This document shows, piece by piece, positions 6,847 through 43,023 of a DNA stretch of 64,000 nucleotides. Below the pieces are notes generated by a model. It was given only the letters and a program-made list of their open reading frames with translations, ran no database searches and was not told the origin of the DNA. A program made the position numbers and the translations under genes. Source of the stretch: Hoeflea prorocentri (GTDB lineage Bacteria; Pseudomonadota; Alphaproteobacteria; Rhizobiales; Rhizobiaceae); NCBI RefSeq assembly GCF_027944115.1, contig NZ_JAPJZI010000001.1, positions 1,488,001 to 1,552,000 of the forward strand, written 5' to 3'. Numbering within the stretch: position 1 is the stretch's first letter; every line of letters starts with the position of its first letter.

Positions 6847-8376
6847 ATGTCCATCAATATCGACAGATTGCGCCGTGAGGCGAAGACACTGAAACGCGAC
6901 TTTGCCGCTGGAAATCCGGAGGCGAGGAAGCGGGCCGCAGCGCTCTTCGGCAATACCGATGCGCTCAAACACACTCAGGCGCTGCACATTATCGCCAGGG
7001 AGCAAGGTCACAAGAGCTGGCCTCAGCTTAAATTTGCCGCGGAAATCTCAGAAATGAACCGGGAGCAGCGTGCAGACCGGCTTCGTATCGCGCTCTTTTA
7101 CGGCCAGCACTGGGTCACCCGTGCACTTTTGGCACAGGACCCCGATCTGCCCAGTGGCAATCTTGGCCTGCTGATCGCGCTCTATGACAGGGCCGCCGTG
7201 GAAGCGGCCTTGTCGGCCGATCCGGACGCGGGAACCCGGCTGGTCGGCGTTCGCAGTCCGATCCTGCATCTGACTTTTTCCAAACATATTCATGCCGAGC
7301 CTGATCGGTCCGACGACATGATCGCCATTGCCGAACTGCTTTTGGGCGCCGGCGCAGATGTGGATGACAGTTTTCCGTTTGAGCAGGGCGGCGAGCATCG
7401 GCTTTCCGCGCTCTATGGAGCATTGGGGCATGCCGACAATATGGTCCTTGCGCGCTGGCTGCTGGATCATGGCGCTGACCCGAACGACAATGAATCGCTC
7501 TACCACTCGACGGAACTCGGGCATCACGAGGGACTGGCAATGCTTCTGGAGCATGGCGCCAAAACCGATGGAACCAATGCCCTTGCGCGGGCCATGGACT
7601 TTGACGATATCGAAGCCGTCCGGCTCCTGCTCGATGCGGGCGCCGATCCGAATGAAGGGGCCTTGCCGCATCCTTCGGGGCAGCCCTCGCTGGCGATTCC
7701 GTCCTTGCACCAGGCAGCGCGCCGGATGTGTTCGGCACAAATGGCGGAACTGCTGATTTCCCGCGGGGCGGACGGAACCGTGCCTTATCGCGGACATACG
7801 GCCTACGCGCTGGCGCGGATGCGCGGTAATCAGGCAATTACCGGGGCGCTGGAGCGCGCCGGTCAGGCGACACCGCTCGATGCAACAGAGACCCTGCTCG
7901 CCGCTGCGGCAGAGGGGCGTGCCGAGGGACAGGTCGACCCGGCCAAGCTTGACGATGAAACCAAACGCATGATGTGCCGGATCATCGGCTTTTCAGGCAG
8001 GCTTGAACATATTCAGCGGCTTCAGGCGATCGGCATCGATCCCGACTGGACGGATGAGATGGGCATGCCGGCAATTCACATCGCAGGCTGGGAGGGACAT
8101 CCCGATGAGGTTGAATGGCTGCTGACCTTCGATCCCGACCTGTCGCACGAGAATGATTATGGCGGCGATCTGCTCGGCACAATCATTCACGGCGCTGAGT
8201 TTTCTCCTCATCGAAAGTCGCGCGACCACATCAGCTGTGCGCGGCTGACGCTGGAAAAGGGGGCGCCGCTGAGACAACGCGAGATCGATCTTTGCGGTGT
8301 CGAGGAGATGACAGAATTCCTGCTTGATTGGGCGGATGCACACCCTCAGCAGGTCGTCGACGACAGTCCGAAGTAG
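6847..8376 (+). CDS. Ankyrin repeat protein
   Basis: Protein of 509 residues with an N-terminal segment of about 65 residues (basic helix, then HIIAREQGHKSWPQLK) that commonly precedes ankyrin arrays in proteobacterial proteins. It continues with many 30-33 residue ankyrin units, for example AIAELLLGAGADVDD, ARWLLDHGADPNDN, LAMLLEHGAKTDG and AVRLLLDAGADPNEG, and ends AIHIAGWEGHPDEVEWLL. There is no signal peptide or membrane segment, so it should be cytoplasmic and mediate protein binding. The partner is unknown. A gagggta ribosome site precedes the ATG. Confidence 0.85.
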   Translation: MSINIDRLRREAKTLKRDFAAGNPEARKRAAALFGNTDALKHTQALHIIAREQGHKSWPQLKFAAEISEMNREQRADRLRIALFYGQHWVTRALLAQDPDLPSGNLGLLIALYDRAAVEAALSADPDAGTRLVGVRSPILHLTFSKHIHAEPDRSDDMIAIAELLLGAGADVDDSFPFEQGGEHRLSALYGALGHADNMVLARWLLDHGADPNDNESLYHSTELGHHEGLAMLLEHGAKTDGTNALARAMDFDDIEAVRLLLDAGADPNEGALPHPSGQPSLAIPSLHQAARRMCSAQMAELLISRGADGTVPYRGHTAYALARMRGNQAITGALERAGQATPLDATETLLAAAAEGRAEGQVDPAKLDDETKRMMCRIIGFSGRLEHIQRLQAIGIDPDWTDEMGMPAIHIAGWEGHPDEVEWLLTFDPDLSHENDYGGDLLGTIIHGAEFSPHRKSRDHISCARLTLEKGAPLRQREIDLCGVEEMTEFLLDWADAHPQQVVDDSPK

Positions 8377-9327: not shown

Positions 9328-10085
9328 TGCCGTTCTCCCTGTTGCAATGCATCGGGGGCATCGTTTGTTCGTGCGTAGCGCGGTTCGGGTGCAAGGCCAC
9401 CGATTTCGAGCACCAGCTTGCGCCGCACCGCGACAGCAAAGTTAGCAGCGTTTTCCGCCGTAATTGTGAAGGAGCCCGGACCGCCGATGATGCGTTCGGT
9501 GAACGCGGCTTCCAGATCGTAGCTGATGGGCCTGCCGCTGCATTGCCGACACAGGATCGCGAGGCCGTTGATGACAATCCCGGCGTCGAGCACCTGCTGC
9601 CGCGCCACGCTGATTGGCGGGCCGTTCCAGTTGTTGGCGCTGTCGGCGGACAGATCGATAACCCGCCGCAGCCCTGTCAGGTCGTTATTTTCAATGAGAT
9701 CCTTGCCGTAAAGGAGCGCCGCGCCGATGGCGTTGCGGCCGCCCGCCCTTCGCGGTGCCGCCATGAGTTTGTCGGCGAAGGATTGCGCGGCCTCAGGACC
9801 ATCGATGATCGTCCATGAAACAACCACGTCCTGAGAAGTATCGTTTCCCCACTCCACATAGGTTACTGCAATGTTTCCGAGCGCATTGTTGCGGATGGCA
9901 TTGAGAACCTGCTGGCTGGTGATTGCCTCCGCGTAGCCGCGGCGTTGAAACAGGATCTCCGCGTTGTCAATGGAGCCGGTTGCGTCGGCCAGCAGCACGA
10001 GTTCCAGGTCGGTCTCCACCTGCGCTGACGCGGCGGTTGGCCATAGCGACAGGTAGAGCAACAAGACAGTCAGAGCATTTTTCAT
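9324..10085 (-). CDS. DUF1194 (von Willebrand factor A-like) secreted protein
   Basis: DUF1194 protein with a VWA-like fold, 253 residues. The start at 10085 gives a classical signal peptide ([21 protein letters not shown]), so it is likely periplasmic. The longer frame from 10256 adds an unrelated basic stretch. A degenerate MIDAS-like motif DATGSID follows LVLLA near residue 33. Later features are [13 protein letters not shown] and CIGG-like loops ending in an [10 protein letters not shown] segment. It is the first gene of a two-gene operon with the hydrolase, overlapping it by four bases. Family function is unknown; VWA-like proteins usually bind proteins or metal. Confidence 0.82.
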
Positions 10086-29747: not shown

Positions 29748-29767
29748 GGTGAACTGTTACCGTAATT
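29748..29767 (+). repeat. Degenerate copy of the 20-base RAYT-associated repeat
   Basis: ggtgaactgttaccgtaatt matches the repeat agtaaactgtcaccgtaatt at 17 of 20 positions. It lies just after the ATP-grasp gene, 2.9 kb before the cluster of exact copies. Confidence 0.6.
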
Positions 29768-31982: not shown

Positions 31983-32660
31983 ATGATGCAATCTTCAGGA
32001 CATATCCGCCCCGCATACAGCCGCGCCGAGCGGCTTAGCGATGGTGTGGTTCATGTTGTTGGGGTTTTCCTGGCGATGATCGCGGTGCCGTTGCTGATCG
32101 TGCTCACGGTCCTGTTCCGTATGGAGCCGGCTCCCATTGTCGGGGTGACGGTCTACGGGGTGACGCTGATCGCGATGCTGTCCTGTTCGGCGCTTTACAA
32201 CATGGTCGACAGCGCAAAATGGACGGGCCTCCTGCGCCGGCTCGACCATTCGGCGATCTACATGAAAATCGCCGGAACCTATACGCCCTTCGTGCTCGTC
32301 TCCGGTGTGTCGGCGACCGGGCTTCTGGCGGGCCTTTGGGGCGCCGCGACCGTCGGCTCGCTTTTGAAGATGCTCGCACCCCACAGGTTCAAATGGTTTT
32401 CGTTGATGCTCTATCTCGTCATGGGCTGGGCCGTGCTGCTCGCCGGCGGGCCGATCATCGCCGGGCTTTCCCCGGCGGTCTTCTGGATGGTTGCGGCCGG
32501 CGGCATCGTCTACACATTGGGGGTCGGATTTCACCTGGCGGCGCGGTTGCCGTTCCACAACACGATCTGGCACGTCTTCGTGCTGGCCGGCAGCGTGCTG
32601 TTTTTCATCGCCGTCGCGGTGCTGATCGCCGGACTGCCGATGGGCGGGAATGTGATCTGA
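31983..32660 (+). CDS. Hemolysin III (YqfA/TrhA) family membrane protein
   Basis: Seven-transmembrane protein of 225 residues in the HlyIII/PAQR superfamily. Motifs include LSDGVVHVVGVF with a conserved His, SALYNM, LDHSAIYMKIAGTYTP (His and Tyr of the family) and NTIWHVFVLAGSVLFF with a conserved His near the C-terminus. Bacterial TrhA tunes membrane energetics; haemolysis is not established here. The start at 31983 (or ATG 31986) fits; a long upstream extension in the same frame is out-of-family. The 3' end is partly duplicated at 33266-33370 and a RAYT repeat lies 12 bases after the stop. Confidence 0.88.
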   Translation: MMQSSGHIRPAYSRAERLSDGVVHVVGVFLAMIAVPLLIVLTVLFRMEPAPIVGVTVYGVTLIAMLSCSALYNMVDSAKWTGLLRRLDHSAIYMKIAGTYTPFVLVSGVSATGLLAGLWGAATVGSLLKMLAPHRFKWFSLMLYLVMGWAVLLAGGPIIAGLSPAVFWMVAAGGIVYTLGVGFHLAARLPFHNTIWHVFVLAGSVLFFIAVAVLIAGLPMGGNVI

Positions 32661-32671
32661 ATTGCGGATTT

Positions 32672-32691
32672 AGTAAACTGTCACCGTAATT
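32672..32691 (+). repeat. RAYT-associated 20-base repeat, copy 1
   Basis: Exact copy of agtaaactgtcaccgtaatt, 12 bases after the hemolysin III-family stop. A partial copy of its right half (accgtaattc) follows at 32708-32717. Confidence 0.85.
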
Positions 32692-32742
32692 CCCAATGGG
32701 TGACGGACCGTAATTCGTCTGCTCTTGATGGTTCAGTATTGC

Positions 32743-33024
32743 TTACAAACGCCCACGGATCACATTCAGGAGCACGGAAGCAAGGAGGCCCAACAAAATG
32801 CCGATAATCGTTGTCACGGTGACGACTCCATAGATCCAGAGTGCGCCTATGTGCCCAAAATCGTCACCGGCAGGAATACTCAAGAAGTAGGCGATCGCCA
32901 GCACATTGAAGACAGCTGCCGCTATCGCAGCCCCAAAGAGGCCGGATCGCATGGCGACTGCAAAACAAATAATCGCTGGTATGAACAACAGAAATTGCGA
33001 TAAATGCGCCAATAGGCCAGACAT
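32743..33024 (-). CDS. Small three-TM membrane protein, unknown
   Basis: Protein of 93 residues with three hydrophobic segments (about 8-24, 28-46, 60-90). No family is recognised. The ribosome site is weak, so the start is uncertain. It lies within the repeat-bounded segment 32672-34115, upstream of a decayed RAYT fragment, and is likely accessory. The frame shows no internal damage. Confidence 0.5.
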   Translation of the reverse strand: MSGLLAHLSQFLLFIPAIICFAVAMRSGLFGAAIAAAVFNVLAIAYFLSIPAGDDFGHIGALWIYGVVTVTTIIGILLGLLASVLLNVIRGRL

Positions 33025-33142
33025 TCAGGAAGCCCGTAACCAAACTGCTTGTGCTAACAACTCCATCAATAGGTTCAACTTAGGCGCGCGGCAAATACCA
33101 AAATTCAATTAGGTAAACGGTTTACCAAATGACCGTGCAAGA

Positions 33143-33248
33143 ACGGTGACCGACGGTGCGGATGGACGAAGGTCCGCTGTAGGCCGTCCTCGTCCTACGG
33201 AACAAGGATGACATGCACGTGGCTAGGTATCAGGCAGAAGCCCAGACC
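33143..33248 (-). pseudogene. Decayed RAYT transposase fragment
   Basis: Read on the minus strand, with one missing base after VWA, this gives CLIPSHVHVILVP, a stop, then DEDGLQRTFVHPHRR. This aligns with CLMPNHVHIILVP-S-DEYGLRRTFADLHRR of the intact transposase at 34847-35521. The fragment carries the HUH (HVH) region only. One base is deleted and a stop replaces the Ser codon, so it is dead. It directly abuts the duplicated hemolysin III-family tail. Confidence 0.8.
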
Positions 33249-33265
33249 GCCGGTCGGGGGCGGGC

Positions 33266-33370
33266 GCTCCTTTCCGCAATACGATTTGGCACGTCTTCGT
33301 GCTGGCGGGCAGTGTGCTGTTTTTTATCGCCGTCGCGGTGCTGATCGCCGGGCTGCCGACGGGCGGGTAG
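33266..33370 (+). pseudogene. Duplicated 3' fragment of the hemolysin III-family gene
   Basis: Thirty-odd codons read PFRNTIWHVFVLAGSVLFF and then IAVAVLIAGLPTGG followed by a stop. They are nearly identical to the last 35 codons of the intact gene at 31983-32660 (PFHNTIWHVFVLAGSVLFF...). The flanks differ on both sides. There is no start codon or the rest of the gene, so it is a remnant made by duplication or replacement next to the RAYT fragment. Confidence 0.85.
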
Positions 33371-33475
33371 AGTCGGGGACTTGGCGGACAGTCTCCGTCG
33401 ATATAGTTGCAAGTAATAGTTGGGTATGATTAAGGTTGTATAGAGGCGACGAAGTCATTAAACGGGCAGTGAGCC

Positions 33476-34075
33476 ATGAAATCGAGCGCGGATTCAGATG
33501 AACTAAAACGCCTGAGCTTCAAGGACAAGTCGGACATCGTCACATCCTGGCTCGGAGTTTTGTCCATCATCATTGCAGCCGTTGCCTTCCTGTACACATA
33601 TCGCGGGGATCTGGAGGACAGGCGTACCGCGCAGCAGTCTGCATCCTTTGAAATGTTTGATCTCTACACAACCAGTCTGGTTGACGAACGTGAGGCATTC
33701 TATGTTGCGCGGCGGAAGGCGAATGATGCCGTCCAACATCTGGCAAACGCAACGCACGGCTCTTCGGGTATTACAGACGCAATTCACAAAGGGCGCCAAG
33801 AAGCCTTTTCGGATGCCGTGAAGGAAAATGGTCGCGGTGCGAAAATTGACCTGCTTGTGGTTTTCTTTGACAGCCTTCATGCCTGTAACTCTACGCAGCA
33901 TTGCGATGAAGAACTGTCCGTCGCGCTATTCGGAATTGAATCAGAAACCATCTTCGAATTTTTGGCCACGCATATTCAGGAGCGACGCAAGGTTCAACCC
34001 AAATATGGAGATGGAATGATGAAGCTGCGATGCCAATATCTGAAGCGCGCGCAATCTGATAAGAACTGCGGTTGA
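33476..34075 (+). CDS. Membrane-anchored protein of unknown function in repeat-bounded segment
   Basis: Protein of 199 residues with one transmembrane segment (about 23-41, VTSWLGVLSIIIAAVAFLYTY) after a charged N-terminus. A helical domain follows with Cys in DSLHACNSTQHCDEEL and further Cys near the C-terminus (KLRCQYLKRA, KNCG). No family is recognised. Its stop lies 20 bases before repeat copy 2. The single anchor plus soluble helical domain is reminiscent of sensors or effectors in mobile cassettes, but nothing proves a function. Confidence 0.6.
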   Translation: MKSSADSDELKRLSFKDKSDIVTSWLGVLSIIIAAVAFLYTYRGDLEDRRTAQQSASFEMFDLYTTSLVDEREAFYVARRKANDAVQHLANATHGSSGITDAIHKGRQEAFSDAVKENGRGAKIDLLVVFFDSLHACNSTQHCDEELSVALFGIESETIFEFLATHIQERRKVQPKYGDGMMKLRCQYLKRAQSDKNCG

Positions 34076-34095
34076 ACTCTTTGTGGCGGGAATTT

Positions 34096-34115
34096 AGTAA
34101 ACTGTCACCGTAATT
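34096..34115 (+). repeat. RAYT-associated 20-base repeat, copy 2
   Basis: Exact copy of agtaaactgtcaccgtaatt between two unknown genes. Together with the inverted copy at 34832-34851 it brackets exactly one gene. Confidence 0.85.
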
Positions 34116-34126
34116 CCTTGACTGTT

Positions 34127-34837
34127 TTAGCTTATGGTCGAAGCGCTTGCGCTCGCCAGTGCCCGGTAGTACTCAGCGTACTCGTCAATTTGCCGCTTTA
34201 TTTCGTCTGTTTTCTGGTCAATCAACCCATTTGATATCGAAAATCCGTAGCCGTTTTTCCAACAGTCAAAGTGCATGTATCTTGCAAGAACATCAGACTT
34301 AGTTAACCTGTTTTTGAGACCGTCGAGATCTTTCACGCGAATGCCGATTAGTCTGTGTTTGTAGCTGTTTGTGTAGATTTCGCAGCTAGCAAACTCGGAC
34401 CAGTTGATCGTCACAGGTTTGCCAACTGCGTAACCCTCGTATTCAATACCTCGGGAAGACAAGACAAGGACATTGGTCAAAAATATCGAGCGCTTCAAGA
34501 AATAGATTGAAAGTAGCGCAAAAAAAGGTAGCCCAACGTGGCTGACCACAACGGCGGGCCGGTACATTATGGTCGATGTGCCACCGGTCAGCCCTTGAAA
34601 AAACAACAAGTCCCATCCGTATTCATGACTTAGTATTCCGAGCATCATGCATACACCGATCGTAAAAAAGCACAGAATTGCTATCGCTTTCCCTCGGAAT
34701 GCTGGAAAAACCTTATTTTCAATTGCTGGGTCGTTTGTTCCGGCTGGCGAATTCAATGTCTTTGACGGACTTAAGGATTGTCCCTGCAGTTTACTGACGT
34801 TGCGAGCCACTTCAACCCATGGTTTGCAAACAATCAC
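34127..34837 (-). CDS. Two-TM membrane protein of unknown function, single-gene repeat-bounded segment
   Basis: Protein of up to 236 residues: a soluble N-terminus of about 48 residues, two transmembrane segments (about 50-70 and 88-112), then a basic soluble domain of about 120 residues (NWSEFASCEIYTNSYKHR, IRVKDLDGLKNRL, ARYMHFDCWKNGYGFSISNG). The latter resembles PH-like bacterial domains that follow two-TM anchors, but I cannot assign one firmly. The first possible start is a GTG inside the flanking repeat, so the repeat may supply the N-terminus. The stop is 11 bases from repeat copy 2. The base composition is AT-rich. Confidence 0.6.
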   Translation of the reverse strand: MIVCKPWVEVARNVSKLQGQSLSPSKTLNSPAGTNDPAIENKVFPAFRGKAIAILCFFTIGVCMMLGILSHEYGWDLLFFQGLTGGTSTIMYRPAVVVSHVGLPFFALLSIYFLKRSIFLTNVLVLSSRGIEYEGYAVGKPVTINWSEFASCEIYTNSYKHRLIGIRVKDLDGLKNRLTKSDVLARYMHFDCWKNGYGFSISNGLIDQKTDEIKRQIDEYAEYYRALASASASTIS

Positions 34838-34851
34838 GGTGACAGTTTACT
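34832..34851 (-). repeat. RAYT-associated 20-base repeat, inverted copy 3
   Basis: On the minus strand it reads agtaaactgtcaccgtgatt, one mismatch from the other copies. It contains the stop codon (TAA) of the RAYT gene and the GTG start of the neighbouring 236-residue frame. Confidence 0.85.
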
Positions 34852-35521
34852 CAATCCCTTTTTTCATTGGTTTTCTGCCCCGCTTGCGCGCAGAAAGCGT
34901 CCGTCCAGTCTGCTGCTCAAGCCTCTTTAGCCAATCAGTATCTCCGATCGGTCGGCCGACGGTTTCGGCGCGGCGCAAGGCGCCATAGGCTTTTGCCTCA
35001 TCGACCGGTTCATCCAGAAATGCCTTGAACCTGCCGGTTCGCTCAAGGACAGGGGCAACGGTGACGACATCATCGTCCTTTCCCGCAAGATGAGCCCTGG
35101 CGCTTGACCATTTCCAGTCCCGGGCACGCTTGACGAGCTTTGCCCGTACGGGATTGAGCGTCACATAGCGGACAGCATTCAGCAGGTGTCCTTCATCCAT
35201 GACCACGGAGCCATAGCGCCCCTGCCACAGATGGCCGGTGACACGCGCCCGTGCATTGATGAAACCGGTGTAGCGGCGATGCAGATCGGCGAATGTGCGG
35301 CGTAGTCCGTACTCGTCCGACGGCACCAAAATGATGTGCACATGATTGGGCATCAGGCAGTAGGCCCAGACCTTTGTTTGGGCTCTGGCGCTGCTTTCAG
35401 CGAGAAGATCAAGATAGAGCGCATAGTCGCCGTCTTCGAAGAACGTCCTCTCCCGCTTGTTGCCCCTTTGGGTGACGTGATGGGGAAGACCGGGAACGAC
35501 GATGCGAGCGAGGCGTGCCAT
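34847..35521 (-). CDS. REP-associated tyrosine transposase (RAYT, IS200-like Y1 transposase)
   Basis: Y1 HUH single-strand transposase of 224 residues. It has the N-terminal HHVTQRGNKRERTFF block, the HUH motif in LMPNHVHIILVP, Tyr candidates in LHRRYTGFIN, GHLWQGRYGS, and the hallmark YVTLNPVRAKLVKRARDWKWSS. The basic C-terminus (KRGRKPMKKG) ends inside the flanking repeat. RAYT enzymes cut and join repeats with single-stranded DNA chemistry, so the 20-base copies around it are its probable substrates. The gene looks intact. A dead relative lies 1.6 kb away. Confidence 0.92.
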   Translation of the reverse strand: MARLARIVVPGLPHHVTQRGNKRERTFFEDGDYALYLDLLAESSARAQTKVWAYCLMPNHVHIILVPSDEYGLRRTFADLHRRYTGFINARARVTGHLWQGRYGSVVMDEGHLLNAVRYVTLNPVRAKLVKRARDWKWSSARAHLAGKDDDVVTVAPVLERTGRFKAFLDEPVDEAKAYGALRRAETVGRPIGDTDWLKRLEQQTGRTLSARKRGRKPMKKGIE

Positions 35522-35548
35522 AGGTGGAGTTTGATCTAAATTGGAGAT

Positions 35549-37291
35549 TTAGTAAACTGTCACCGTAATTAATTTAGATATGAGCAATAGAAGGTATGGG
35601 TTTGTGAGGAAACAGATAGCTTCATGTAGATTTCCAAAGAACTTGAGAACACCCAGTAGATCGCGTCCTTTGTCTGATACTGTTACCGAATCAATTCGTG
35701 CATATGGCAGTTTCCCGTGATGAGATTTGTACTCGGCCTTTGTATTTGGGTGTTGCATCCTTAGTGCTCGGCAGAATGCATCGATGTCCTGAGGGATTCT
35801 AATAACTGGGCGTCTCCATTGCGGATCATCCCAAAGGCAAAGTTCCCCTCTTTCAGTTGGCCGTAAAGTCGGGCGAAGGGCCATATGACGTTGCCCGTGG
35901 TTTTCGACTTCTATGGCGTTGTGAAGTGCAAGTCGCCGCGGAAACATCCATCGATGGATAATATTGGAAAATCTACTGTGGTCCTCAGTACGTTCGATGC
36001 TTAAATCGCAGAACCAAGCGCCAACTGTGACGGGACTAAGCGGAAATTCTTCTGTGTGCTTGGGCTTCGTACATGGAAGATCTACCTCGTTTTGCTCAAT
36101 GCGGACTGTTGCGGTATTTCGATAGTGCTGCCAACTCCATGCTTGCCACAGGAAATGGCTGTGCCGATATTTGGTTCGGGGATTTGTTTTGGAAAGTGGC
36201 TCGAAAACATCGGGAGCTGCCATTTTGTCGCTGGACGACATTACATGGCCACTGTTTTTAATGTTATTTGAGATTGTTTTGAGTTGCTCTGCGTCAACGG
36301 AACTTGACACAATCCGTATGTGCGATGCGCCGTTACCGCGCAAACGACGCATATTTGTTGCGCCGCTACACAGTTGCTCTATCCAGGGTGGTAGCCCATG
36401 CTGAAATCGCGATTTATCAAAACGAAATATTTGATTACTTCTGAAGGTGTCCAAAGATGCATATCTGTGAATCGCGTTCCAAAATAGAATGCGGTCTTCG
36501 GCGCAATCTCCAACAACAATGGTGAGTTGTTCCTCCCAGCTAGTGTCGTATTCCTGTAGTATGTTCAAATATGGACAAAACATGTCGGACATTTGAGCGG
36601 GTACGTGAATTTGACGATCACTAGCAAGGCGATTTTCAAGCTCCTCTACATCAGAGATATATGAGATTACATCATCCCCATTGAAACGCGGTGCATATCT
36701 CTCGTTTCCACGTTGTCGGAAGCTTAGTCTTTTAGCGTATGGAGACAGCCTGATATCGACCATCGAGTTGCTCAGAAACCCGAAAGAGTCAATCAAATCC
36801 CTCCCTAACTCGCTTCCTCTTTCCTTGTCTAAGGCTAAAATTGTTGAGCCGCCCCCGATTTCTTGATTTCTCGAAATCTGAGGAAGGACCGATACCGACT
36901 TTAGTGCCCATCTAAGTTCATCAGCTTCAGGTCGGTAGCTCCGATGGTCATTTAGTTCGTCAACAGCTGGATGTACTTTGATCGAATAGGGAGACAGGCA
37001 GTATGCAATTCTGTCGTGAAGCTGGTCTTCAAGCGTAACATAACTGTAGATGATATCAGCGTCCCATAAGTCGAGAAGAGTCCATTCAACATCTCTGATA
37101 GTTGCACCATCTGTTATGATTACTGGTGTTCTCCGACCACCCCATCGAGACATCGACTCATCAAAAATGGTATCCAGAAGTGTGTGGTCAGGATTTGAAG
37201 GCACTAGGTAAGCTACACGGAGTGGACGAGGAGAGATTCTAGCTCTGCGCGTTTTGTCTGTGGTCCACATTGATTCAGTACCCAAATCCAC
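35549..37291 (-). CDS. Unknown protein, probably truncated at its C-terminus by a RAYT repeat
   Basis: Frame of 580 residues with no recognised family. The N-terminal part (RPLRVAYLVPSNPDHTLLD, SMSRWGGRRTPVIITDGA, WDADIIYSYVTLEDQL) looks like a Rossmann-like alpha/beta domain; the rest is mixed with no membrane segment. The last residues, LITVTVY, are encoded by the 20-base RAYT repeat, so the native C-terminus has been replaced. First start is GTG at 37291; an ATG at 37270 is also possible. It is divergent from the AIPR gene with a short promoter gap and shares its AT-rich composition, suggesting one acquired unit. Confidence 0.6.
   Translation of the reverse strand: MDLGTESMWTTDKTRRARISPRPLRVAYLVPSNPDHTLLDTIFDESMSRWGGRRTPVIITDGATIRDVEWTLLDLWDADIIYSYVTLEDQLHDRIAYCLSPYSIKVHPAVDELNDHRSYRPEADELRWALKSVSVLPQISRNQEIGGGSTILALDKERGSELGRDLIDSFGFLSNSMVDIRLSPYAKRLSFRQRGNERYAPRFNGDDVISYISDVEELENRLASDRQIHVPAQMSDMFCPYLNILQEYDTSWEEQLTIVVGDCAEDRILFWNAIHRYASLDTFRSNQIFRFDKSRFQHGLPPWIEQLCSGATNMRRLRGNGASHIRIVSSSVDAEQLKTISNNIKNSGHVMSSSDKMAAPDVFEPLSKTNPRTKYRHSHFLWQAWSWQHYRNTATVRIEQNEVDLPCTKPKHTEEFPLSPVTVGAWFCDLSIERTEDHSRFSNIIHRWMFPRRLALHNAIEVENHGQRHMALRPTLRPTERGELCLWDDPQWRRPVIRIPQDIDAFCRALRMQHPNTKAEYKSHHGKLPYARIDSVTVSDKGRDLLGVLKFFGNLHEAICFLTNPYLLLLISKLITVTVY
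35551..35570 (+). repeat. RAYT-associated 20-base repeat, copy 4
   Basis: Exact copy of agtaaactgtcaccgtaatt. On the minus strand its bases encode the last residues (ITVTVY and stop) of the 580-residue frame, showing that the repeat sits inside that reading frame. Confidence 0.85.
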
Positions 37292-37487: not shown

Positions 37488-39218
37488 ATGGATTCCGTCA
37501 CACGGTCTTTGGTAAAAGAGTTTTCGGATAGCAACAATTTTTCTGAATTAGGTGCCGGTAAACAATTCGAGCATTTCGCGGCTTTCAGTATCTTATTCGC
37601 TCGATTTCCTGACGAAATCGCAACCGAAGAACATGTGGTCGGTGACGGTGGTGATTTGAACATTGATGCTTACGCGGTCAAGGTCAACGGAAGGTTGGTG
37701 CTTGATGCGGAGAATGTGGATGATCTGCTCGAGTTAAATGGCTCATTAGATGTTGAGTTCATAATCATTCAGGCAAAATCATCGGATAGTTTCGATGGTG
37801 CTGCAATACTGGCGTTGGGTGACAATCTAGCAAAGGAGGTTTTCTCGGAAAGTCCCAACCTGCCTGTTAATGACGATGTTAGGCGGTTTATGGAGATAAA
37901 AAATAGGGTGTTCGAAAACGCCGCTAAACTCAAAGACAATCCTATATGTAGGGTCTTTTACGCCTGCACTGGAAACTGGAAAAACGATGACTACCTGACG
38001 AAAATTATTGACCGTAAAAGGGACGAAATACTCGATACCAATTTGTTCTCTGAAGTCTCATTTGAGCCCCTTGGGGCGCGTGAATTACAACAGCTATTTA
38101 GGCGTACAAAAACAAGTATATCTCGTACAATTCGCATCGACAGCTTGGTTACTCTTCCGACGATTAAAGACGTGGAAGCCGCCTATCTTGGCATATTGCC
38201 AGCATCGGAGTTCTTGAAGTTACTCATCGACGATGATGGTGACATAATGAAGTCAGTGTTTGTTGACAATGTCAGAGATTTTCAAGGGCAGAATCCAGTA
38301 AATTTGGACATTGCTAAGACGATTCAAGAGGGTGATTTCGACCAATTCGTGCTTCGAAATAACGGCATAACCATCGTCGCGAAGAGCATCAGACCGACAT
38401 CTAGTCAGTATCGTCTCGAGGAGTATCAGATTGTAAATGGTTGCCAAACGAGTCATGTGATTTACGAAAACAAAGAGATACTTGGCGACGGGCTTTTTGT
38501 TCCGGTTAAACTGATCCACACTGAAGATGAAGAAGTAGCCCAAGCAATTGTAAAGTCTACTAATAAGCAGACCCTTGTGGACGAAAACGACCTACTGGCC
38601 TTCACTCCGTTTCAACATGGTTTGGAAGACTTTTATGGATCTATGGATTCTGAATATAAGCTATACTACGAGCGTCGAGGCAAGCAATTTGCTCGAACCG
38701 AGGGAATTGAGAAAGGTCGCATCGTTACCAAGGGTATTCAGTTGAAGACATACGCTTCAATGTTCTGTGACTTGCCTCATCAGGCTGGGAGATACCAAGG
38801 AACTCTTTTGAAGACGGTCAGGGATCGTGTATTCCGGGAAGATCATCGACCCGATGCCTACTATACCTCGGCTTTCACAAATTATCGATTTGAGATTGCA
38901 ATCAGACGACTCCCAATCGATGAGAGGGTTATTCGATCATTCAAGTTCTATCTTTTACTCGCATTTCGATATCGTTTTGAAAGACAAATGTTCCCAGGTG
39001 CAGGGAACAGAAAATCTGACGCTTATTGCAGGGAGTTACTAGAAAACCTGGGTACCGTCACCAGCTCGAAAGAGGCGTTTGATGAATGTGTCTCGATTAT
39101 TCAACAGTCATTGAAGAATCTTGGCATTCCTTTTGAGCGAGACAGTGCAAAGTCGCGGCCTTTAGTTGATGAGGTCATGTGTGTTGCTAAAAATCGAAAT
39201 CCAATTTATTGCGAATGA
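37488..39218 (+). CDS. AIPR family (abortive phage infection-type) protein
   Basis: AIPR-domain protein of 576 residues. The N-terminal part resembles a restriction-endonuclease-like fold (GGDLNIDAYAV ... VEFIIIQAKSSDS, fitting D...QxK variants). The AIPR core follows: FVLRNNGITIVAKSIRP, YQIVNGCQTSHVIYEN, AIVKSTNKQTLVDENDL. AIPR proteins were first linked to phage abortive infection and are frequent near restriction systems. Here a GGAGG site precedes the ATG, the gene is AT-rich, and a strong terminator ends it. The divergent 580-residue frame is the likely partner. The defence role is inference. Confidence 0.83.
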   Translation: MDSVTRSLVKEFSDSNNFSELGAGKQFEHFAAFSILFARFPDEIATEEHVVGDGGDLNIDAYAVKVNGRLVLDAENVDDLLELNGSLDVEFIIIQAKSSDSFDGAAILALGDNLAKEVFSESPNLPVNDDVRRFMEIKNRVFENAAKLKDNPICRVFYACTGNWKNDDYLTKIIDRKRDEILDTNLFSEVSFEPLGARELQQLFRRTKTSISRTIRIDSLVTLPTIKDVEAAYLGILPASEFLKLLIDDDGDIMKSVFVDNVRDFQGQNPVNLDIAKTIQEGDFDQFVLRNNGITIVAKSIRPTSSQYRLEEYQIVNGCQTSHVIYENKEILGDGLFVPVKLIHTEDEEVAQAIVKSTNKQTLVDENDLLAFTPFQHGLEDFYGSMDSEYKLYYERRGKQFARTEGIEKGRIVTKGIQLKTYASMFCDLPHQAGRYQGTLLKTVRDRVFREDHRPDAYYTSAFTNYRFEIAIRRLPIDERVIRSFKFYLLLAFRYRFERQMFPGAGNRKSDAYCRELLENLGTVTSSKEAFDECVSIIQQSLKNLGIPFERDSAKSRPLVDEVMCVAKNRNPIYCE

Positions 39219-39270: not shown

Positions 39271-42200
39271 TCAACTACACCCGCTCGTGCTCCCGCACGT
39301 GTCGCACTTCAGACACGTCCCGTTCCGCACCATCGTGAAGTTGGAGCACTCAGAACAGGCATCGCCCGTATAGCCCTGCATGATCGCCTTGGCGCGGCGG
39401 TCGGCTTCGACGCTCTTGGCATCGGCGCGGGCCTCTTCCGCCGTGTCAGCGTCGAAGAGTTCGTCGGTGTCTTCCTCGGCGATTTCCTCTGAGAGCTGTT
39501 TGGCGCGTTCTTCGTAGTCGCGTTTGAAGGCGGTGGCTTCTTTGGCGTTGGCCTGGGCGACGGCTTCGGAGACGACGGCTGCGCCGCCGGAGATCGCCGT
39601 CACGTTGGAGCCGCCGCTGCCGGCCGGTGCGCCGCCCATGGGCTGGCCGCCGGGGGCGATGAGTTCCAGCTTGTGGCCGCGGGTCCAGCCTTTTGAGACA
39701 GGCGCGGTCTTGCCTTCCTTGATGCCCTTGCCCAATGCCGTGTTGGAGAAATCCGACGTGTCGATATGGGCAAGGTCGTGGCGCTCCAGATAGGAGACGG
39801 CAAGCTCGCGGAACACATAGTCGAGGATCGACGTCGCGTTCTTGATCGCGTCATTGCCCATGACCATGCCGGCCGGCTCGAACTTGGTAAAGGTGAAGGC
39901 CTCCACATATTCGTCCAGCGGCACGCCATATTGCAGGCCGAGCGAGATGGCGATGGCAAAATTGTTCATCATGGCGCGGAAGGCGGCGCCTTCCTTGTGC
40001 ATGTCGATGAAGATCTCGCCGAGGCGGCCATCGTCGAATTCGCCGGTGCGCAAATAAACCTTGTGTCCGCCGACCACGGCCTTCTGGGTGTAGCCCTTGC
40101 GCCGGTTGGGCAGCTTCTCGCGGTCGCGGATGACCTTCTCGACCACGCGCTCGACGATCTTCTCCGTCACGGCAACGGCCTTGGCGGCGGCGGGGGCCTC
40201 GAGCAGTTCCTCGAGCGCATCCTCGTCCTCGTCGTCCTCGATGAGCGAGGCGTTGAGCGGCTGGGAGAGCTTTGAGCCGTCGCGGTAAAGCGCGTTGGCC
40301 TTCAGCGCCAGTTTCCAGGAGAGCATATAGGCGGATTTGCAATCCTCGATATCGGCCTCGTTGGGCATGTTGATCGTCTTGGAGATCGCGCCCGAGATGA
40401 AGGGCTGGGCCGCCGCCATCATGCGGATGTGGCTGTCGGTGGAAAGATAACGCTTGCCGATCTTGCCGCAGGGGTTGGCGCAATCGAAGACGGCGAGGTG
40501 CTCGTCTTTGATATCCGGCGCGCCTTCCAGCGTCATCGCACCGCAGATGTGGATATTGGCGGCGTCGATGTCCTGCTTCGAAAAGCCGAGGAATTCCAGC
40601 ATGTTGAACTCCATGTCGTTCAACTGCTCATCGGAAATCTCCAGCACCTCCTTGCAGAAATCCGCGCCCAGGGTCCACTGGTTGAAGGCGAATTTGATGT
40701 CGAAGGCGGAGGCGAGCGCGCCGTTCAGCGCCTCGATCTTCTCGTCGGTGAAGCCCTTGGCCTTCAAGGAGCCGGGATTGACCGCCGGGGCTTGATTGAG
40801 ATTGCCGTGGCCGACGGCATAGGCCTCGATCTCGCCGATCTGGCTTTCCGAATAGCCGAGGGTGCGGAGGGCTTCCGGCACGGCGCGGTTGATGATCTTG
40901 AAATAGCCGCCGCCGGCGAGCTTCTTGAACTTCACCAGCGCGAAGTCGGGTTCGATGCCGGTGGTGTCGCAGTCCATGACAAGGCCTATCGTGCCGGTTG
41001 GCGCGATGACGGTGGCCTGGGCGTTGCGGTAGCCGTGTTTCTCGCCGAGTTTGACGGCGTTGTCCCAGGCGGCGGTGGCGTGTTCGACCAGCTCCGCATC
41101 CGGGCAGTCGTCGTGAATGAGCGCGACCGGGTTGGTCGAGAGCTTCTCATAGCCCGCCGTTTCGCCATGGGCGGCGCGGCGGTGGTTGCGCATGACGCGC
41201 AGCATGTTGGCCTTGTTGGGCTTATAGCCGGGGAAGGGGCCGAGCTCGCCCGCCATCTCGGCGGAGGTGGCGTAGGAGACGCCGGTCATGATGGCGGTGA
41301 TGGCGCCGCAGATGGCGCGGCCGGCATCGGAATCGTAAGGGATACCGGAGGTCATCAAGAGGCCGCCAATATTGGCGTAGCCGAGGCCGAGCGTGCGGTA
41401 TTTATAGGAGAGTTCGGCGATCTGTTTCGACGGGAACTGCGCCATCATCACCGAGATTTCGAGCACCATGGTCCAAAGGCGCACACCGTGTTCGAATTCA
41501 CCGACGAGGAACTTGTTGGTCTTCTTCTCCATGAACTGAAGCAGGTTCAGCGAGGCAAGGTTACAAGCCGTATCGTCGAGGAACATATATTCCGAGCACG
41601 GGTTGGAGGCGCGGATCGGGCCGGCCGCCGGGCAGGTGTGCCAGTCGTTCATCGTGGTGTTGAAATGGAGGCCCGGATCGGCGGAGGCCCAGGCGGCGTG
41701 GCCGATACTGTCCCAAAGCTCGCGGGCCTTGACCGTCTTCGTCACCTTGCCGTCGATGCGGCCGATCAGGTCCCAGTCGCCATCGGCCTCGACGGCGTTG
41801 AGGAAATCGTCCTTGATCGAGACCGAGTTGTTGGAGTTCTGGCCGGAGACGGTGAGGTAAGCTTCCGAATCCCAGTCGGTGTCATAGGTGGTGAACTCGA
41901 TATCCTTGTGGCCCTGGCGGGCGAACTGGATGACGCGCTTGACGTAGTTCTCCGGAACCTGCGCCTTCTTGGCGGCGCGGATCTCGCGTTTCAGGGCCGG
42001 GTTCTTTTTCGGGTCGAAGCAATCGCCGTCCGGGCCTTCGCAGTTGACGCAGGCCTTCATGATGGCTTTGAGGTGGGTGTTGACGACCTTGGAGCCGGTC
42101 ACCAGCGCGGCGACCTTCTGCTCTTCTTTCACCTTCCAGTTGATATAGGCCTCGATATCGGGGTGGTCGATGTCGACGACGACCATTTTGGCGGCTCTAC

Positions 42201-43023
42201 GGGTGGTGCCGCCCGATTTGATGGCGCCGGCGGCGCGGTCGCCTATTTTCAGGAAGGACATGAGGCCGGAGGAGCGGCCGCCGCCCGACAGCGTTTCGCC
42301 TTCGCCGCGCAGATGCGAGAAGTTGGAGCCGGTGCCGGAGCCGTATTTAAAGAGACGCGCCTCGCGGACCCAAAGGTCCATAATGCCGTTCTCATTGACG
42401 AGATCGTCCTCGACCGACTGGATGAAGCAGGCATGGGGCTGCGGGTGCTCGTAGGAGGATTTCGATTTCACCAGCTTGTTCGTGAACGGGTCGACATAGA
42501 AATGGCCCTGGCCGGGACCGTCAATGCCATAGGCCCAGTGCAGGCCGGTGTTGAACCATTGCGGGCTGTTGGGCGCGACGCGCTGGGTGGCGAGCATATA
42601 GGCAAGCTCGTCATAGAAGGCGCGGGCGTCTTCCTCACCCTCGAAATAGCCGCCCTTCCAGCCCCAATAGGTCCAGGTGCCGGCAAGGCGCGAAAAGACC
42701 TGGCGCGCATCGGTCTCGGAGCCGTAGCGCTCATTCTCGGGCAGCTTTTCAAGCGCCTCAAGGTCGGCGGTCGAACGCCAGAGCCAGGACGGAACGTCGT
42801 TTTCCTCAACTTTTTTCAGACATGCGGGGACGCCGGCCTTGCGGAAATATTTCTGCGCAAGGATATCGCTCGCCACCTGCGAGAACTGAACGGGGACGTC
42901 GATGTTTTCCAGGCGGAACACCACGGAGCCATCAGGGTTCTTGATTTCGCTCGTCGCCTTGCGAAACTCGATTGCCGCGTATGGCGATTTTCCTGCTTTT
43001 GTAAAACGACGCTCAATGCGCAT
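39271..43023 (-). CDS. nrdJ: Vitamin B12-dependent class II ribonucleotide reductase
   Basis: Adenosylcobalamin-dependent ribonucleotide reductase of 1250 residues, the usual length of the long rhizobial NrdJ. It makes deoxyribonucleotides from ribonucleoside diphosphates independently of oxygen. Seen are the substrate/active-site block [20 protein letters not shown], the finger-loop region [21 protein letters not shown], and the C-terminal Cys-rich zinc-like tail ([21 protein letters not shown] in parts), which shuttles reducing equivalents. The ATG follows a cgagg site. Tandem NrdR-like boxes lie upstream, so NrdR repression is expected. Confidence 0.97.

Follow-up and report, generated by a model that had tools for sequence, protein, structure and literature searches.

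Terminal inverted repeats of a TIRtron-type transposase in an accessory-gene hotspot of Hoeflea prorocentri: probable remains of repeated insertion rather than gene cassettes

Introduction

TIRtrons, or TIRYTs, are described as genes resembling REP (repetitive extragenic palindrome)-associated tyrosine transposases (RAYTs) and flanked by long terminal inverted repeats (TIRs), some of which lie over the 3' end of the gene (Di Nocera 2013, PMC3733652). According to the same description, the repeats also occur as singles, dimers and groups, and a GGGGWSAS motif is reported for some TIRtron TIRs only. The TnpA-Y1 subclass 2.1 has been linked to TIRYT in the portion of a later classification drawn on here (Quentin 2018, PMC6006769). 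In this study we analysed a 20-base repeat and the RAYT gene associated with it in a 64,000-nt stretch of the 5.04-Mb genome of Hoeflea prorocentri (contig NZ_JAPJZI010000001.1, positions 1,488,001 to 1,552,000), hereafter called the window. The repeat and the RAYT are real and of the already known TIRtron kind. The 20-mer is quite probably the TIR of a compact TIRtron-type RAYT element that repeatedly inserted and decayed in an accessory-gene hotspot, where low-GC genes were acquired through island accretion or exchange and not as RAYT cassettes.

The gene shares with TIRtrons its character as a Y1 RAYT-like gene, with PF01797 above the cut-off though below that of the NCBIfam RAYT model (REP_Tyr_transpos, 72.2 bits, cut-off 80). 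It is flanked by long TIRs and not by GTAG REP hairpins, and its TIRs likewise occur as single, dimeric and grouped copies. The repeat itself differs: it reads AGTAAACTGTCACCGTAATT, in which GGGGWSAS is not present as such, GGTGACAG being found by inspection. Self-nesting and the siting at tRNA genes and a hotspot, both seen here, do not appear in the parts of PMC3733652 drawn on for this comparison. The NHVH and Y--LNP motifs and the lack of REP hairpins agree with TnpA-Y1 subclass 2.1, as does the length (224 aa versus a median of 238 in the portion of PMC6006769 considered), whereas no C-terminal helix-turn-helix (HTH) match was obtained here. With REPtrons and REPINs the locus has in common a RAYT with short inverted repeats, and tight pairs in genome G004 are REPIN-like; however, no GTAG-tagged palindrome was seen, the TIR is not palindromic on inspection and only 9 copies (≤3 mismatches) are present in the genome. 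Like IS200/IS605 elements, the unit is compact and encodes a Y1 transposase, but it has no consistent subterminal hairpin at the four ends folded, and neither a target-site consensus nor a common target tetranucleotide was seen by eye at 12 junctions.

Repeat copies and the TIR-RAYT-TIR unit

A preliminary description of the window had listed four repeat copies, and their positions, strands and single mismatch were all confirmed. The 20-mer AGTAAACTGTCACCGTAATT occurs exactly at 32672+, 34096+ and 35551+ and with one mismatch at 34832-, against a chance expectation of 0.00. A fifth, degraded TIR-like match with 3 mismatches (29748-29767, +) is located outside the array, in sequence common to genome G001, which has no TIR at the corresponding place. 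A genome-wide search for the 20-mer, suggested as a check in the same description, located the copies in two multi-gene stretches: the nine matches at ≤3 mismatches comprise five in the window and four in a second cluster (C1:3589127-3593344, treated as locus L009). In both clusters two inverted copies flank a RAYT gene, with the left end less than 50 bases before the ATG and the right end over the stop codon (Table 1). Both this anatomy and the clustering are seen directly.

The NHVH and YVTLNP motifs were read by eye in the RAYT translation. The protein matches the solved structure of the E. coli TnpA-REP (PDB: 4er8) weakly (E=0.0048), and a Pfam search at E≤1 for a C-terminal DnaA/HTH-like domain gave Y1_Tnp alone. 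Consistent subterminal hairpins were not found at the four ends that were folded (z-scores -2.5, 0.5, 0.9 and -1.0).

Besides complete units, short foldback forms (TIR-TIR) exist. Genome G004 contains five tight inverted TIR pairs, and the one pair that was folded forms a 28-bp stem. REPIN-like inverted pairs 39-41 bp apart were located in this genome at L050:9456-10234, L051:4730-10048 and L053:10140-10198; in the L053 pair the inverted symmetry extends past the TIRs into the flanks, with GAATGGGT on either side. Regular tandem TIR copies were seen in genome G586, with a spacing of 32 bp at C44:416-497 and of 27 bp at C73:52972-53043.

Coding regions had been described as beginning or ending inside the repeats. 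This holds for the RAYT gene, which ends in the 34832 copy, and for the 580-aa open reading frame (ORF), which ends at the 35551 copy. The ORF at 34127-34837, said to touch repeats at both ends, has its GTG start inside a repeat, but its stop lies 11 bp before the 34096 copy. This GTG is owed to the mismatch in the 34832 copy and is doubtful as a start codon because the family match covers only residues 95-220. Read outward, the TIR has stops in 2 of 3 frames; read inward, in 2 of 3 (left end) or 1 of 3 (right end). ORFs ending within a TIR are expected, since it carries stops in several frames.

Distribution in other genomes

The 20-mer (≤2 mismatches) is present in 8 of 8 genus genomes, with 1 to 15 TIRs per genome. 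At family level 8 of 151 genomes contain its 18-base core (≤1 mismatch), and at class level 5 of 289; the H. prorocentri genome is counted in both. A reversed control pattern yielded 0 matches in the scans of this genome and the genus and in one wider scan; in the other wider scan, two genomes had a single match each. The exact 18-mer was not found in viral contigs.

A scan of genome contigs retained 77 RAYT loci from Rhizobiaceae, Bradyrhizobium, Sphingomonads, Nitrosomonas, Mariprofundaceae and others; 56 contain at least one TIR (≤3 mismatches) and 21 none. With the genus loci added and same-contig copies removed, a set of 207 TIRs was obtained: 71 at the left and 62 at the right end of a RAYT gene, 61 solo TIRs and 13 solo TIRs with a RAYT piece inside. 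Most of the 207 TIRs end RAYT genes, which makes the 20-mer the TIR of this RAYT lineage; the earlier assignment of the repeat to the RAYT thus stands. Many copies of a dispersed repeat of about 300 bp, exemplified by L047:6890-7195, were also noted across the genus genomes.

Nested, decayed and solo ends

Twelve of the 207 TIRs have RAYT coding sequence no more than 6 bp beyond their outer edge, namely seven left ends with N-terminal pieces, two right ends with C-terminal pieces and three solo ends. Nine of these nested junctions could be typed for orientation, and all nine (9/9) have that of the unit. Five further TIRs have RAYT sequence 64-204 bp outward. The RAYT pieces share 80.7-99.7% identity with the neighbouring unit (7 compared).

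Relics, like these junctions, are directly visible. Three of the features in the window had been overlooked in the preliminary description: the RAYT relic at 33150-33245, a duplicate HlyIII 3' end at 33256-33367 and a left-end remnant at the HlyIII stop. The relic (residues 52-83) adjoins the second HlyIII 3' end, while the remnant (32647-32691) takes the place of the HlyIII stop, which is a TAG in G001, in genome G002 and in the second HlyIII copy. Ten solo TIRs were compared with unit ends over 25 inner bases; those at window position 32672 (20/25) and at L009_9326 (18/25) resemble left ends, and the rest reach 10-15/25. Most segment ends are explained by units that have decayed, by RAYTs inserted into one another and by broken pieces of the bordering genes.

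In the proposed course of events, the RAYT would cut and join single-stranded TIR DNA, as presumed from the Y1/HUH family, and would move its own unit and possibly also the short TIR-TIR foldbacks. The element would have inserted several times between the HlyIII side and the ribonucleotide-reductase side of the hotspot, often landing in resident RAYT copies and giving nested and tandem ends. Nested copies may have collapsed by homologous recombination, and copies would have decayed to solo ends, relics and fragments, while low-GC genes would have arrived at the hotspot by island accretion or exchange.

Several observations weigh against this reading. In 8 of the 9 typed nested junctions, which were inspected (all except L075), the older RAYT lacks its other half beyond the unit; the collapse step is assumed for this reason. 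At L056 the RAYT piece 64 bp from the left end has the opposite orientation. Eight of the ten solo TIRs, that at 34096 included, show no clear likeness to a unit end past the TIR, and a perfect empty site matching both flanks of one unit was not found. Furthermore, RAYT relatives were found neither in the plasmid collection (E≤1e-30) nor in the phage collection (E≤1e-10), unlike common insertion sequences.

Within one contig, L094:1-5092 contains three near-identical RAYT copies (two partial; 98.5% identity) in one orientation with other ORFs in between, and L088, about 98% identical to L094 where alignable, has a single RAYT unit there. We take ORFs of these two loci to encode a toxin-antitoxin pair (DUF433/DUF5615), an AAA-ATPase and a PIN protein, labels of which NCBIfam found none. 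The start of a group II intron suspected in L094 had no Rfam support. In L106, a direct-repeat sequence beside the RAYT presumably resembles the end of another insertion sequence.

The hotspot and its gene content

The features between and around the repeat copies are given in Table 1. The gene at the right border is presumably nrdJ, encoding a ribonucleotide reductase. In G001 the stretch from HlyIII (with a ZinT-like gene) to the reductase-like gene contains two RAYT units and other ORFs, one of them for an HD-domain protein; the matching stretch of G002 has different ORFs (HNH, radical SAM) and no TIR. This variation is observed directly, and gene turnover therefore occurs with and without the repeats. 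Five non-RAYT segments of the array have a GC content of 0.44-0.50 and the RAYT unit of 0.57, compared with 0.61 for the left flank, 0.56 further right and 0.62 for the reductase-like gene.

Table 1 Coordinates of features between and around the repeat copies of the window
Feature	Position	Strand	Evidence
HlyIII gene, left border of the hotspot	31995..32660	+	Pfam HlyIII; 88% orthologues in G001, G002
Left-end remnant (25 inner bases + TIR 32672-32691) fused to final HlyIII codons	32647..32691	+	20/25 inner bases as in unit left end; repeat family 89% over 45 nt
93-aa ORF	32743..33024	-	No family above cut-off
RAYT relic, residues 52-83	33150..33245	-	tblastn 62.5% identity
Second copy of HlyIII 3' end, TAG stop	33256..33370	+	87% to own HlyIII over 112 nt (33256-33367); 86-88% to G001/G002 HlyIII over 102 nt
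199-aa ORF	33476..34075	+	No family found (family-library scans)
Solo TIR	34096..34115	+	Inner flank like neither unit end, 10/25 each
236-aa ORF, STM3941 family over residues 95-220	34127..34837	-	NCBIfam NF041635 41.5 bits, cut-off 40
Complete TIR-RAYT-TIR unit (TIRtron)	34832..35570	-	About 740 bp; 94% identical to other unit of own genome
Right-end TIR, overlaps RAYT stop, one mismatch	34832..34851	-	Repeat match
RAYT gene, 224 aa, Y1_Tnp, motifs NHVH and YVTLNP	34847..35521	-	Pfam PF01797 1.2e-08
580-aa ORF extending into left TIR	35549..37291	-	In 1/397 genomes (own)
Left-end TIR, 5' of RAYT, outer side rightward	35551..35570	+	Repeat match; left ends in relatives
AIPR/AbiU-like putative phage-resistance gene, same hotspot	37488..39218	+	PADLOC AbiU 3.8e-120; Pfam AIPR 1.3e-42
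Ribonucleotide-reductase-like gene (presumed name), right border of the hotspot	39271..43023	-	Conserved in G001, G002

The start-to-start distance of the HlyIII 3' duplication (32537-32648 and 33256-33367) is 719, equal to the spacing of the two TIRs of the RAYT unit (719), which is probably a coincidence.

The second cluster begins 3.2 kb from a tRNA-Thr gene, behind it, and all 8 genus genomes have this tRNA-Thr at the corresponding position. SIR2 and HerA genes adjoin the cluster, which also surrounds a caspase-like gene. At L009 6951-7014, about 40 bp before a TIR at 7054, there is a copy of about 63 of 75 bases of the tRNA-Thr, which the tRNA and Rfam scans did not call as a tRNA. The stretch between the tRNA-Thr and this partial copy (L009:1882-7014; G000:C1:3585881-3591013, G000 being the H. 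prorocentri genome) comprises SIR2, HerA, the RAYT unit and a 268-aa ORF. No integrase was among the ORFs searched in it, and the island may be integrase-free.

A TIR is located ≤1 kb downstream of a tRNA in 8 of the 71 loci that contain TIRs, and ≤1 kb upstream of one in none of them. Circular shifts led to expectations of 3.4 and 3.3, respectively, and 22 of 2000 shifts reached 8 downstream; locus L164 was left out since it had been chosen via the hotspot. Defence genes were scanned in 110 of 193 ORFs near RAYTs and 110 of 199 far ORFs, counting families and not proteins. The PADLOC families numbered 106 near and 13 far, the near ones among the matches listed being mostly GajA/GajB models that each match one member and the far ones including IetA, mad3, SoFic and Vsr; Pfam families numbered 119 in the far and 83 in the near set. 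As the PADLOC counts are families rather than proteins, no claim of a defence-island enrichment near RAYTs is possible.

Joining of single TIR edges

The same junctions can be explained in another way. The RAYT may cut at a TIR and ligate that single edge, mostly the left one, to nearby outside DNA without the other end, so that neighbouring DNA is duplicated, deleted or replaced. Accessory islands would then grow from the units, with genes trimmed, neighbouring DNA replaced and segments stacked. We consider this explanation improbable, though better placed than the others discussed below. It is suggested by the left TIR edge of a G001 unit (L044:11990), which cuts a fragment of the ZinT-like gene, an extra copy beside the full gene; ZinT is our presumed name for this G001 gene at the hotspot. 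Similarly, in Bradyrhizobium L105 the left TIR at 9944 cuts sequence that continues unbroken in both L099 and L106, and for about 1 kb past the unit L105 is unlike L099. Left ends abut N-terminal RAYT pieces in 7 loci, the piece in L099 being 99.7% identical to the adjacent unit, and a 383-bp segment common to L094 and L088 has RAYT units joined to it on a different side in each locus.

The same RAYT-in-RAYT products, however, also arise from ordinary nested insertion with subsequent recombination between repeats, and an insertion plus a deletion afterwards could explain both the ZinT-like and the L105 case. The evidence from L105 is thin, with a match of only 25-27 bp beside the TIR, behind a gap of about 320-370 bp, and part of the DNA past the unit resembles DNA near the RAYTs of L108, L114 and L136. 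We know of no Y1 enzyme that joins one-endedly. If true, joining of this kind would let islands grow without a site-specific integrase and without a pair of transposon ends, giving accessory and defence-like genes a novel means of building up.

Gene segments between the repeats

In the preliminary description the RAYT was thought to excise and insert TIR-bounded gene segments, moving or exchanging single genes as cassettes. Several features are in line with this model: the copies split the array into short gene segments, a second array is present in the same genome, the loci L094 and L088 (about 98% identical) have the same 383-bp gene segment with RAYT units joined at its different sides, and short non-RAYT pieces recur beside RAYTs. 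Cargo moved in the way the RAYT is moved should sit between a left-facing and a right-facing end. All adjacent TIR pairs at ≤3 mismatches were therefore examined after removal of same-contig copies (n=135, related species such as L107/L111 being counted separately). The bracketing orientation was found in 55 pairs, of which 42 overlap a RAYT match at 640-800 bp and one holds an internally deleted RAYT (564 bp); the remaining 12 have no RAYT and are ≤60 bp (6) or 76-146 bp (6) apart. None of the 55 spans more than 800 bp or holds gene cargo. Cargo is confined to non-bracketing intervals, among them 34116-34831.

Nor was a whole cargo gene found again. A search of 397 genomes of the order located the 236-aa ORF in its own genome, with one weak partial match elsewhere (E 1.3e-4), and the 580-aa ORF in its own genome only. 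In 131 flanks of RAYT units, compared over up to 2 kb with RAYT and TIRs masked, no whole gene and no piece longer than 149 bp was common to otherwise unlike loci, the close pair L088/L094 excepted. The 149-bp piece (92% identity) is shared by the right-end flank of L055 and the left-end flank of L057 near 15140, loci that are otherwise unlike; the flanks of L105 and L114 have pieces of 105 and 58 bp in common, and dispersed pieces of 29-78 bp also recur. These short recurrent pieces are the sole sign here of DNA travelling with RAYTs.

A search for homology that stops exactly at TIR edges gave few cases (L044, L088/L094, L102 and a TIR common to L107/L111), and when loci were compared for gained or lost segments, the matches listed were mostly RAYT-in-RAYT alignments. 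Precise repeat-to-repeat gain or loss in relatives was not found in this sampling of mostly one genome per species, which rare exchange could escape. At the hotspot of G002 the cargo varies without any repeat. The parts of the literature on RAYTs with cargo, islands or hotspots that were covered contained no report of RAYT cassettes. The cassette model is rejected, chiefly because no bracketing TIR pair encloses cargo (0/55), and we regard it as very unlikely. That the RAYT is instead domesticated for a host function, with the TIRs as old substrates and their clustering passive, would suit the low copy number in the genus and the absence of relatives from plasmids and phages, but is scarcely credible given the near-identical copies on one contig (L094, 98.5%), the nested insertions and a patchy presence of the 18-mer that suggests a mobile element.

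Implications

Repeated insertion and decay of a TIRtron-type element is, in our opinion, the probable origin of the array. Under this explanation, what looks like gene cassettes set between short repeats can be the remains of a RAYT element that nests in itself within an integration hotspot. The locus and its relatives also offer a clean TIR family with many junctions, available for testing the role of this little-studied RAYT class.

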